A stretch of DNA of 64,000 nt from Inmirania thermothiophila (GTDB lineage Bacteria; Pseudomonadota; Gammaproteobacteria; DSM-100275): NCBI RefSeq assembly GCF_003751635.1, contig NZ_RJVI01000002.1:917986-981985 (forward strand), given 5' to 3'. The position numbers were made by a program, and so were the translations under genes. This document shows, piece by piece, positions 26,784 to 35,800 of the stretch. The stretch's first letter is position 1, and every line of letters begins with the position of its first letter. The notes beneath the pieces were generated by a model. That model made no database searches. It saw only the letters and a program-made list of their open reading frames with translations, and had not been told where the DNA came from.

Positions 26784-28572
<1,789 letters not shown>

Positions 28573-28583
<11 letters not shown>

Positions 28584-29238
28584 GGGGCAGCAGGGTCAGG
28601 CGGGCCCCCTCGAAGCCGTAGCCGGCGCCGGTGTCGATGAACCAGACGTTGGCGATGCGGGCCACATCGTCGAAGACGGTGTGGCCGCAGTAGACCCGGA
28701 CCACGTCGGGGACGGGCTCGGTGCACAGGCCGCGGGCGCGCTGGCGGCTCCACAGCGCGAACTGGCGCAGCTCCGCGTCCTCCGCAAGGCGTGCCGTGAA
28801 CTCCGCCCAGGGCATACCGCAGGGCACGTCGGCGTGGACGATGCCCACCAGCCCGGCGTCGGTCTCCACCTCCAGGGCGAGGGGAAGGCGGGCGAAGATC
28901 TCCACGAAGCGCTCGCGGGTGGGCGGGTCCACGCCCAGCCACCAGTCGCCGCCGTTGACCCCCACCCACCAGGAGAGGTCGTCGACGTTGTGCACCGCGG
29001 TGTGCACGAACTCGTCGTGGTTGCCGCGGCAGGCGTGGAACCAGGGCCTCGCGAGCCAGTCGAGGGCCTCGCGGGAGGCGGGGCCGCGGTCCACCAGGTC
29101 GCCGACGCAGAAGAGGCGGTCGCGCGCCGGATCGAAGCGCACCTGCGCGAGCGCCCGCTCCAGCATCCGGTACTCGCCGTGGATGTCGCCGCAGACGAAG
29201 TCCCGGCCCTCGGTGTTGCGGCTGTAGTGCTCGACCAC
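28573..29238 (-). CDS. PPP-family serine/threonine phosphatase / metallophosphoesterase
   Basis: 221 aa. The metal-binding signature is complete: GDIHGEYRML (GDxHG), CVGDLVDRGPASREALDWL (GDxxDRG), CRGNHDEF (GNHD), then VHADVPC and YCGHTVF for the last His ligands. It is the size of the small bacterial PrpA/PphA-like protein phosphatases and lambda phosphatase, shorter than ApaH; the substrate may be a phosphoprotein or a dinucleoside tetraphosphate. The start is GTG at 29238 with a G-rich but weak site upstream. It lies divergent to the Sir2-MazG gene and upstream of glnK-amtB; its 3' end contains an NtrC dyad. Confidence 0.85.
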
Positions 29239-29307
29239 CTGCCCCGCGATCCCCCAGCTCGACCCCTACAAGGTAGGGCGCCGGCCGGCCCCTGTACAGG
29301 GCCGCGC

Positions 29308-29336
29308 TTGACCCCAGGCGCCGCGCCCTCTACAAC
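29308..29336 (+). promoter_or_regulatory. Predicted sigma-70 promoter of the Sir2-MazG gene (leaderless geometry)
   Basis: TTGACC (29308-29313), a 17-nt spacer, and TACAAC (29331-29336). The expected start, about 7 nt past the -10, coincides with the GTG start codon at 29343. No clear Shine-Dalgarno sequence precedes that GTG, so a leaderless mRNA is predicted. Confidence 0.5.
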
Positions 29337-29342
29337 GGGGGC

Positions 29343-30887
29343 GTGGAGGAACCCGTCCCGCCGCAGGCCCTCGTGCAGGCGCTGGCCAAGGCCCGGCGCA
29401 TCGCCGTCCTCACCGGCGCCGGCGTCTCCGCCGAGAGCGGCGTGCCCACCTTCCGCGACGCCGCCACCGGCCTCTGGGCCCGGTACGACCCCCACGAGCT
29501 GGCCACCCCCGAGGCCTTCGCCCGCGACCCCGCGCTGGTCTGGGACTGGTACGCCTGGCGGCACGCCCTCGTCGCCCGCGCCGAGCCCAACGCCGCCCAC
29601 CGCGCCCTCGCCCTCGCGGAGGCCCAGTCCGAGCACTTCACGCTGGTGACGCAGAACGTCGACGGGCTGCACCGCCGCGCCGGCAGCCGCCGCCTCGTGG
29701 AGCTGCACGGCACCCTCACCCGCGCCCGCTGCACCGGCTGCGCCGCCCGCTACCCCTTCCCCCCGCCGCCGCACCCGCCGCACTGCCCCCGCTGCGACGC
29801 GCTGCTGCGCCCGGACGTGGTGTGGTTCGGCGAGGCGGTGCCCGCCGAGGCCCTCGACACCGCCCGCGCGGCGGCCGCCTCGTGCGAGGTCCTGCTGGTG
29901 GTGGGTACCTCGGCACGGGTGGAGCCGGCCGCCTCCCTCGCGCGGGTGGCGCTCGCCGCGGGCGCCGTGGTGGCGGAGATCAACCCGGAGGCGACCCCCC
30001 TCAGCGCGCACGCCCACCACGTGCTCCGCGGCCCCGCCGCCGGGGTGCTCCCGCGCCTGATCGCCGCCGCCTTCCCCGGGCTCGCCCCCGCCCTCGAGGA
30101 CGACGCGGCGCGGCTGCGCCGCCTCATCGACCTCATGGCACGGCTCCGCGACCCGGAGCGGGGCTGCCCCTGGGACCGCGCCCAGACCTTCGCCACCATC
30201 GCCCCCTACACCATCGAGGAGGCCTACGAGGTCGCCGACGCCATCGCCCGCGGCGACCTCGGGGCCCTGCGCGAGGAGCTGGGCGACCTCCTCTTCCAGG
30301 TGGTCTTCCACGCCCGCATGGCGGAGGAGCAGGGCGCCTTCGACCTGCGCGCCGTCATCGACGGGCTGGTGGCCAAGATGCGCCGCCGCCACCCCCACGT
30401 CTTCGGCGACGCGTCGGTGGACGACGCCGCGGCGCAGAGCCGCCACTGGGAGGCCATCAAGGCCGCCGAGCGGGGCGCGGCGGACAGCGCCCTCGACGGC
30501 ATCGCCCTCGCCCTGCCGGCGCTGGTGCGGGCGGCCAAGGTGCAGCGGCGCGCGGCCCGCGTCGGCTTCGACTGGGACGCGCCGGAGGCGGTGCTGGAGA
30601 AGGTGCGCGAGGAGACGGCGGAGCTCGCCGCCGAGCTCGCCGCCCGCGACCGCGCCCGGCTCGCCGACGAGCTCGGCGACCTCCTCTTCGCCGCCGTCAA
30701 CCTCGCCCGCCACCTGGGGGTGGACGCCGAGGACGCCCTGCGCCGCGCCACCGCCCGCTTCGAGGCCCGCTTCCGGACCATGGAACGCCTCGCCGCGGCG
30801 CGCGGGACGGCCCTCGCCGCGCTCGATGCCGAGGCCCTCGAGGCCCTGTGGGCGGAGGCCAAGGCGGCCGAGGCCGCCAGGTCATAA
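29343..30887 (+). CDS. Sir2 (sirtuin deacylase)-MazG (NTP pyrophosphohydrolase) fusion protein
   Basis: 514 aa in one uninterrupted frame. Residues about 12-240 are a CobB-type sirtuin: TGAGVSAESGVPTFRD (24-39), the acyl-pocket Y70-x-x-R73 motif found in class III desuccinylase-like sirtuins, QNVDGLH (104-110), catalytic His122, and a Zn knuckle of Cys130/133/148/151. Residues about 245-514 are a full two-repeat MazG: RLRDPERGCPWDRAQT, then EEAYE (292-296) with EELGD (311-315), and EETAE (423-427) with DELGD (442-446), the acidic Mg sites. NAD-dependent lysine deacylation and hydrolysis of NTPs to NMP plus PPi are the family activities. No stop and no good internal start separates the halves. 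The GTG at 29343 coincides with the predicted transcription start. It precedes maeB, a Nudix gene and aacS on the same strand. Confidence 0.92.
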   Translation: MEEPVPPQALVQALAKARRIAVLTGAGVSAESGVPTFRDAATGLWARYDPHELATPEAFARDPALVWDWYAWRHALVARAEPNAAHRALALAEAQSEHFTLVTQNVDGLHRRAGSRRLVELHGTLTRARCTGCAARYPFPPPPHPPHCPRCDALLRPDVVWFGEAVPAEALDTARAAAASCEVLLVVGTSARVEPAASLARVALAAGAVVAEINPEATPLSAHAHHVLRGPAAGVLPRLIAAAFPGLAPALEDDAARLRRLIDLMARLRDPERGCPWDRAQTFATIAPYTIEEAYEVADAIARGDLGALREELGDLLFQVVFHARMAEEQGAFDLRAVIDGLVAKMRRRHPHVFGDASVDDAAAQSRHWEAIKAAERGAADSALDGIALALPALVRAAKVQRRAARVGFDWDAPEAVLEKVREETAELAAELAARDRARLADELGDLLFAAVNLARHLGVDAEDALRRATARFEARFRTMERLAAARGTALAALDAEALEALWAEAKAAEAARS

Positions 30888-30897
30888 CCCATGCTTA

Positions 30898-30906
30898 TGC
30901 TAGAAT
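30898..30906 (+). promoter_or_regulatory. Extended -10 promoter of maeB
   Basis: TGCTAGAAT contains an extended -10 (TGN) followed by TAGAAT, 5 of 6 to consensus. It sits in the only AT-rich patch of the 115-nt gap between the Sir2-MazG gene and maeB. No good -35 lies upstream, as is usual for extended -10 promoters. The leader would be about 90 nt. Confidence 0.5.
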
Positions 30907-31002
30907 TGAACGGCTTGGGGCGCGGCAGCGGAAGGCCCGCCCCCCACCCCGCCGCCGCGGCTCCCCCCGGGAGGCGGCGGCGTTCGCGTTGCGGAGGAGC
31001 CC

Positions 31003-33293
<2,291 letters not shown>

Positions 33294-33297
<4 letters not shown>

Positions 33298-33838
33298 GCC
33301 GGCGTCCGATCCATCGCGGCCGCGTCGTCGACCTCGGCATCGAGGAGGCGGTGCTGCCGGACGGGCGGCGCATCGCGCTCGAAGTGGTGCACCACCCGGG
33401 CGGCGCGGCGGCGGTGGCGCTGGAGGCCGGGCGCGTGTGCCTGCTGCGCCAGTACCGCCACGCCGCCGGGGGCTGGCTCTGGGAGCTGCCGGCGGGCAAG
33501 ATCGACCGCGGTGAGGACCCGCTCGAGACCGCTCGCCGCGAGCTCGCCGAGGAGGCGGGCGTCGAGGCGGCGCGGTGGACGCCGGTGGCCTCGTTCCTGA
33601 CCACGCCCGGCTTCTGCGACGAGGTGATCCACGTCTTCCGCGCCGAGGGGCTGCGGCGGGTGGGCACCGCCCACGAGCGGCACGAGTGCATCGAGGTGCA
33701 CTGGGTGGATGCCGGCGAGGCCCTCGCTTGGTGCCGCGACGGCACCATCCGCGACGCCAAGACCCTGATCGGCCTGCTGCTCGCGCTCGCCCCCCCGGCA
33801 GGTAGAATCCCGCCACAGCGCGGAGGAAGGAGGAGCCC

Positions 33839-33842
<4 letters not shown>
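33294..33842 (+). CDS. Nudix hydrolase, ADP-ribose pyrophosphatase type
   Basis: 182 aa. The Nudix box is complete, G-x5-E-x7-REL-x-EEAGV, within ELPAGKIDRGEDPLETARRE; the preceding VCLLRQYRHAAGGWLWELPAG and the following FLTTPGFCDEVIHVFRAEGL are typical of NudF/ADPRase proteins. These cleave ADP-ribose, including the O-acyl-ADP-ribose released by sirtuins, to AMP and a ribose phosphate. It starts with GTG at 33294 inside the maeB stop (4-nt overlap) and ends inside the aacS start (ATGA at 33839), so all three genes are translationally coupled. The last about 15 residues are Arg/Pro-rich and may be non-conserved, since they carry the next gene's ribosome-binding site. Confidence 0.88.

Positions 33843-35800
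<1,958 letters not shown>

Follow-up and report, generated by a model that had tools for sequence, protein, structure and literature searches.

A predicted sirtuin-MazG fusion protein of Inmirania thermothiophila and its probable origin from neighboring genes

Introduction

The window analyzed here, a 64,000-nucleotide stretch of the Inmirania thermothiophila genome, contains a gene in which a sirtuin and a MazG protein appear to be encoded as one chain. The locus raises the question of why a predicted NAD-dependent deacylase and a predicted nucleoside triphosphate (NTP) pyrophosphohydrolase should be joined: from what arrangement the joint gene arose, whether the two halves act on one another, and whether the cell makes a single protein from it.

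Two complete domains in one open reading frame

The sir2-mazG fusion gene (29343..30887, forward strand) begins with GTG and encodes 514 residues with a computed mass of 55.2 kDa. The initial annotation had described one open frame encoding one chain, and this holds: the frame has no internal stops, and both families score over their cut-offs. The sirtuin half (29343..30074, forward strand, to about residue 244) is predicted to be a CobB/SIRT5-type NAD-dependent deacylase, with a complete domain at about residues 9-243. It matches Pfam SIR2 at residues 25-195 (E 3.3e-54) and exceeds the cut-off of the NCBIfam NAD-dependent protein deacylase subfamily PRK00481.1-3 (288.4 against 243 bits), while staying under that of the CobB equivalog NF040867.1 (263.5 against 320 bits). 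The residues on which the claim of a CobB-type sirtuin was based are all found, namely the YxxR pair (Y70 and R73), the catalytic H122 and the four zinc cysteines (C130, C133, C148 and C151), along with an NAD motif formed by G25-A26-G27 and Q104, N105 and D107.

The nearest solved structures to the sirtuin half are 4twi, 1m2g and 1ici, and SIRT5. The fold matches 1m2g in Foldseek (TMt 0.91), and the 50 PDB matches listed are all sirtuins that cover about half of the chain. The likeness to CobB/SIRT5-type sirtuins (1m2g and 4twi, which we take to be Archaeoglobus Sir2Af1, and the CobB structures 6rxj and 1s5p) extends over residues 9-240, which align to 4twi, and includes YxxR, the catalytic histidine and the four zinc cysteines; those proteins stand alone, however, whereas the chain examined here continues into a MazG.

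The MazG half (30102..30884, forward strand, residues 254-514) holds two MazG repeats and is complete at about residues 254-510. Pfam MazG matches in two stretches, the better at residues 281-354 (E 3.7e-42), and two NCBIfam equivalogs score over their cut-offs (PRK09562.1, 345.5 against 208 bits; TIGR00444, 304.4 against 148.3 bits). All of the acidic metal motifs that had been claimed for a two-repeat MazG are present: EEAYE at 292 and EELGD at 311 in the first repeat, and EETAE at 423 and DELGD at 442 in the second. Residues 258-510 align end to end to the two-domain MazG structures 3cra and 3crc (presumably E. coli MazG), in which the N-terminus is free, whereas in the fusion protein it is joined to the sirtuin.

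Residue conservation was read in nine sirtuin rows and nine MazG rows of aligned relatives, the fusion protein itself not counted. The metal residues E292, E293, E296, E312 and D315, and E423, E424, E427, E443 and D446, are identical in all nine MazG rows, and the other catalytic and metal residues named above are conserved as well, except for C133 and for the initial residue of EELGD and of DELGD, which varies. Zinc cysteine C133 is missing in five of the nine sirtuin relatives (L038, L189, L035, L188 and L092), all of which keep the other three. Judged by domain extent and catalytic residues, both halves are complete and their putative activities are probably retained, in keeping with the annotation's view that both look active.

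Genomic neighborhood

The gene lies in a genome (G000) of 2.6 Mb in five contigs, 99.85% complete, that is the sole member of its order among the genomes compared. On the reverse strand, and divergent from the fusion gene, is a calcineurin-like phosphatase gene (28573..29238; Pfam Metallophos). Downstream, on the forward strand, are maeB (31003..33297), encoding an NADP-malic enzyme with a phosphotransacetylase-like domain; a Nudix hydrolase gene (33294..33842; Pfam NUDIX), which overlaps maeB by 4 nt; and aacS (33839..35800), an acetoacetate-CoA ligase gene over the TIGR01217 cut-off that overlaps the Nudix gene by 4 nt. Matches of the Nudix protein to ADP-ribose diphosphatase models are all below cut-off.

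The fusion gene is separated from maeB by 115 nt. No promoter matches were found at the locus (0.1 expected by chance), the 5'-leader ahead of maeB folds no better than shuffles (z -0.23), and the one terminator-like site in 28500-34000 is inside maeB (0.7 expected). With this gap and no promoter matches, any operon link between the fusion gene and maeB is putative.

In this genome, no MazG domains other than those of the fusion gene exceed the Pfam cut-off (a third place, at 14.7 bits, falls short of it), so the MazG function of the cell probably rests on the fusion protein. The genome also encodes another sirtuin, which stands alone and is of the PRK05333.1 type (373.6 against 305 bits; L002, minus strand, about 1056-1900, G000:C1).

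Related arrangements occur elsewhere. In G083, of the same class, a Nudix gene 65% identical to that of the window lies directly 3' of mazG (L185:4862-6150). A Chloroflexi sirtuin gene is followed by a Nudix gene with 31% identity to the window's (L035:4001-5325), which might clear ADP-ribose products, and a Roseiflexus metagenome-assembled genome has two tandem sirtuin matches, 57% and 48% identical to the sirtuin of the fusion (L081:4001-5504).

An unfused counterpart in a syntenic relative

The most informative relative is G014 (locus L167), which belongs to the same class but to another order, where it stands alone, and which has the same block with sir2 and mazG as separate genes. The shared block comprises the divergent phosphatase, sir2, mazG, maeB and aacS, with identities to the window of 64%, 59%, 57%, 71% and 70%, respectively. 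Past the phosphatase, the G014 block continues with PII (79%) and a distant ammonium transporter (32%), and a ParA-like gene occupies the place of the window's Nudix gene. The G014 sir2 gene ends in TAG, and after 4 nt mazG begins with ATG in another frame. Between the LPRLIAA motif and a methionine that both share, G014 has 25 residues (10 from the sirtuin and 15 from MazG), compared with 23 in the fusion; that the combined tail lengths nearly add up supports derivation from a G014-like pair. Read from these alignments, the window gene is most likely a merged pair of G014-type sir2 and mazG neighbors, the ancestor itself being inferred.

Other relatives retain parts of this arrangement. G086 and G210 keep mazG next to maeB, and a sir2 match is absent from the fetched stretch in both. 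G031, also of the same class and 0.9 Mb in size, has a divergent sirtuin gene whose overlap with mazG is 17 nt (L174:4959-6477). In Microvirga lenta, a sirtuin is followed by MazG in the same frame, but with a stop and 78 nt between them. Both genes were found at E 1e-20 in nine of 218 loci, from four genomes, and within the fetched flanks they share one frame only in the window's genome.

Rarity of the architecture

A second one-chain sirtuin-MazG protein was not found among the matches listed from at least 1,094 genomes. The survey took in 369 genomes of the same class, 398 from across the phylum and 385 from the class of G380; of these, 237, 348 and 238 had a match, the last count at 1e-60. 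The class of G380 is probably Alphaproteobacteria, given that the named MazGs closest to those of its members come mostly from that class, although the one closest to G380's own comes from Stenotrophomonas. That the window's own class is Gammaproteobacteria fits the mazG of one of its genomes, G649 (L131), which shares 79.7% identity with E. coli mazG over 98%. Among the matches listed, the best non-self scores were 315.1 bits in the same class, 303.9 bits in the phylum and 315.9 bits in the class of G380, compared with 1090.7 bits for the fusion protein against itself, in a survey that scored the top few candidates per genome and could miss a divergent fusion.

A peptide-pattern scan of 84,980 species likewise returned no second fusion in the best 80 of 584 relatives, the topmost of these 80 being the unfused Microvirga pair. 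Among phages 237 records matched, and among plasmids 144; in neither group did any have a place covering over 80% of the fusion protein. In viral contigs, the matches at 12 loci were limited to the sirtuin half and linker. Phage cargo was considered and rejected, given that no fusion was seen among these phage, plasmid and viral-contig matches and that the neighborhood is a housekeeping one. The same one-chain architecture was not found in other lineages among the matches listed, and the fusion thus appears to be a lineage-specific, apparently new domain architecture, known from one genome.

The annotation knew of no described protein with this architecture, and a search of open-licence titles and the starts of abstracts returned none among the matches listed. 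As far as passages of the individual papers go, MazG occurs in PMC5107563 in the reference list only, is also mentioned in PMC7824862, and is not mentioned in those of PMC8603916.

MazG fusions with other partners

Fusion at the N-terminus of MazG is not confined to sirtuins. In two genomes of genus g661, an MBL-fold (Lactamase_B_2) hydrolase and MazG share one frame (L229:2018-3757 in G1004 and L230:2975-4615 in G1075), and in G777 a GNAT acetyltransferase is joined to MazG in one open frame of 453 residues (L238:3395-4756). In this last case the partner's chemistry is opposite to that of a deacylase. A further case is the methyltransferase-MazG protein YabN (NF052436), which resembles the fusion in having MazG as its C-terminal part, but which has a methyltransferase where the fusion protein has a sirtuin. 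The MazG half of the fusion scores 296.7 bits against the YabN model, where the cut-off is 525 bits, and matches only at model positions 228-485, and membership was rejected. N-terminal fusion to MazG thus recurs with varied partners (MBL-fold, GNAT and the YabN methyltransferase), and this variety weakens the functional reading of any single partner. Among loci L222-L238 there was no sirtuin match.

Several long frames around MazG proved not to be further fusions. Outside the window's genome, 26 had at least 100 residues open upstream. Three of them are the genuine fusions at L229, L230 and L238 described above; another 20 that were scanned, with L026 and the duplicates L169 and L170 left out, contained no Pfam family beyond MazG and the related PRA-PH, and were rejected. 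Such domainless frames are the open frames common in G+C-rich DNA. A match over query residues 112-511 in G861 (L224) was rejected on similar grounds, as a spurious long frame with no second domain.

A putative bifunctional housekeeping enzyme

We consider it probable that a lineage-specific fusion of neighboring housekeeping genes has produced a bifunctional enzyme, an NAD-dependent deacylase and an NTP pyrophosphohydrolase whose halves work independently. The ancestor would have had a cobB-type sir2 and mazG adjacent, and probably translationally coupled, in a sir2-mazG-maeB-(nudix)-aacS block. In this G014-like ancestor, a frame shift and the disappearance of the sir2 stop would then have brought both genes into one frame, the product being expressed, presumably, as one chain of about 55 kDa. 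The N-terminal domain would remove lysine acyl groups at the expense of NAD+, and the C-terminal domain would hydrolyze NTPs to NMP and pyrophosphate. Most likely, the halves function separately on either side of a linker of about 10 residues, and would be made in equal amounts. The description of the pair as metabolic house-cleaning enzymes, put forward when the locus was first annotated, fits the neighboring maeB, Nudix hydrolase and acetoacetate-CoA ligase genes and the unfused pair in G014.

Each particle would be expected to carry at least two sirtuins, because MazG proteins dimerize; passages of PMC10014863 describe the M. tuberculosis enzyme as active in dimeric form and dependent on its acidic magnesium ligands. 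By analogy, the acetoacetate-CoA ligase AacS of the same block is a plausible candidate target for deacylation. Its C-terminal lysine motif is PRTISGKK. Work by Tucker and Escalante-Semerena in 2013 reportedly placed the Streptomyces lividans acetoacetyl-CoA synthetase under the control of a protein acetyltransferase. CobB, as described in passages of PMC8556138, deacetylates acetyl-CoA synthetase and so reactivates it, and this precedent, together with the motif, would make AacS a reasonable target.

Alternatively, the halves could be functionally coupled, with the NAD+ state or deacylation by the sirtuin controlling MazG, or the reverse, and the fusion would then be a Rosetta-stone sign of a real link. 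This is a possibility to be taken seriously, if an unlikely one. Same-order adjacency in G014, in G031 (with its divergent sirtuin) and in Microvirga lenta speaks for it, as does rough arithmetic by which only 0.009-0.024 adjacencies in the same order and strand would be expected by chance over the 71 sirtuin-bearing genomes of the class other than the window's own, G014 and G031 both being among them. The linker is also short and, in the structural model, helical. However, the adjacency is rare: among the best 30 same-class sirtuin loci, only those of the window's genome and G014 have a MazG within flanks of about 1.5 kb. MazG is also fused to the unrelated partners described above, and there is no evidence of regulation.

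Phages offer a further parallel. According to passages of PMC9503650, phages of the Escherichia phage V5 and Proteus phage Mydo type have a sirtuin gene coupled to a MazG-superfamily gene and others, so that an association of sirtuin and MazG genes is already in print, as far as those passages go, though not as one chain. These neighborhoods mildly support coupling and count against mere independence. The initial annotation had recognized neither this parallel nor the derivation of the fusion from adjacent genes. They differ from the window, however, in that the genes are separate and accompanied by an RNA ligase, cREC and a nucleotide kinase, and the same passages place the phage sirtuins in a distinct clade, not that of the fusion's sirtuin, for which the authors propose a role in RNA repair.

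Two further systems described in part of the literature invite comparison. The PncC-COG1058 fusion (PMC3680494) also joins an enzyme of the NAD cycle, an NMN deamidase, to a pyrophosphatase, but its domains are unrelated to those found here and its pyrophosphatase is described as acting on ADP-ribose, whereas MazG acts on NTPs. The macrodomain-linked SirTM sirtuins (PMC4518038 and PMC8556138) are similar in that their gene context ties them to a protein related to ADP-ribose; as those passages describe them, they belong to another sirtuin class and their operon link is to a macrodomain. Membership of the fusion in that group was rejected.

A more specific proposal is that of a bifunctional regulator, in which an NAD+-sensing sirtuin half would deacylate lysines of MazG in the same chain, or else the block's metabolic enzymes, and would tie the cleaning of the nucleotide pool to acyl-CoA and NAD+ status. 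This we regard as somewhat more doubtful still than coupling in general.

The junction and expression as a single chain

A bifunctional enzyme of the kind preferred here presupposes that the junction (30075..30101, forward strand, residues 245-253) is real and is translated through. An AlphaFold2 model of the whole chain, built on an 18-row alignment, has a mean pLDDT of 90.7 and a pTM of 0.70. It places the last sirtuin helix at residues 232-243, a short helix at 245-251, followed by a break, and the first MazG helix at 254-268; with a pTM of only 0.70, the arrangement of the domains relative to each other is uncertain. The junction contains no in-frame start codon, and more broadly there is no in-frame ATG, GTG or TTG between GTG235 (30045) and ATG265 (30135).

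Other members of the two families were used for comparison. The GCPWD motif served as the anchor in 110 of 113 other MazG frames, the remaining three being dropped. A start codon occurs 14-30 residues before the anchor in 101 of the 110, and is absent there in the fusion gene; when the interval is widened to 14-40 residues, 109 of the 110 have one, and so does the fusion gene, in GTG235. For the sirtuins, 78 other frames were compared (62 anchored, 16 dropped), and all 62 end 27-57 residues past the anchor, whereas the fusion frame continues for 302 residues.

These data bear on an error of sequencing or assembly, by which two ordinary adjacent genes would have lost a stop and a start in assembly. 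The genes are indeed separate in relatives, and the fusion is seen in one genome only among the matches listed; a second assembly of the species was not found. An error would, however, have to remove two signals, the stop of the sirtuin gene and the start of the MazG gene, and the usual MazG start position has no start codon in this gene. With a single indel after 30058, the sirtuin frame would still run on to 30901 or 31271, and no nearby stop would be restored. Third-position G+C is unbroken, at 0.96-1.00 along the whole gene, and the assembly has few contigs and high completeness. An error is, on balance, improbable.

It may be instead that a separate MazG is also, or mainly, made, either by proteolysis or from an internal start at GTG235 or ATG265, both of which are in frame; the G014 mazG starts at the corresponding place. 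The annotation had named a single nearby start, an ATG whose use would remove the first MazG helix. ATG265 does fall inside that helix in the model, but GTG235, which is modeled inside the last sirtuin helix, had been overlooked. The positions of both codons within helices argue against their use, as does the lack, by eye, of a clear Shine-Dalgarno sequence just 5' of either, and we judge this no more probable than an assembly error.

RNA repair and defense

A role in RNA-end repair has been proposed in passages of PMC9503650 for phage sets of a sirtuin, MazG and a phosphoesterase; a similar role for the fusion would involve ADP-ribosyl transfer and not deacylation. Here the sirtuin and MazG do occur together with genes for a calcineurin-like phosphatase and a Nudix hydrolase, and similar sets occur in the phages. 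No RNA ligase was seen among the annotated neighbors, however, and, set against the separate clade of the phage proteins, the fusion's sirtuin is a predicted class III deacylase by model and motifs, which makes such a role very improbable.

NAD-consuming SIR2 effectors and nucleotide-depleting enzymes are established themes of bacterial defense. A device that depletes NAD+ and NTPs, whether against phages or as suicide under stress, would suit those themes, but is equally improbable given the housekeeping neighborhood, a deacylase-type sirtuin with zinc cysteines and a YxxR pocket, a MazG that is the genome's only one over cut-off, the failure of the fusion protein to match any PADLOC family (0 families at E 0.01) and the lack of a fusion among the phage, plasmid and viral-contig matches listed. 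Of the nine neighbors run against PADLOC, two had matches: GlgB, at 115.9 bits, to a GlgB model and the Nudix protein, at 37.7 bits, to a model of a candidate system. Each seems to be an ordinary representative of a broad family. The earlier suggestion of a defense-like role is accordingly not borne out, as there is no PADLOC match for the fusion, the nine tested neighbors are metabolic and the fusion has a deacylase-type sirtuin.

Significance

The unfused counterpart in a syntenic relative makes the fusion event readable almost base by base. If the halves are independent, the gene would be a clean example of the fusion of operon neighbors, and a warning against over-reading Rosetta-stone fusions. 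It is also a concrete case for asking whether sirtuins and MazG act together, at which the phage neighborhoods, as partly described, hint likewise. Should the regulator proposal prove true, this would be, to our knowledge, the first chain that joins a protein deacylase to an NTP pyrophosphohydrolase, and it would point to a hidden link between sirtuins and MazG in the bacteria and phages that encode them as separate genes.
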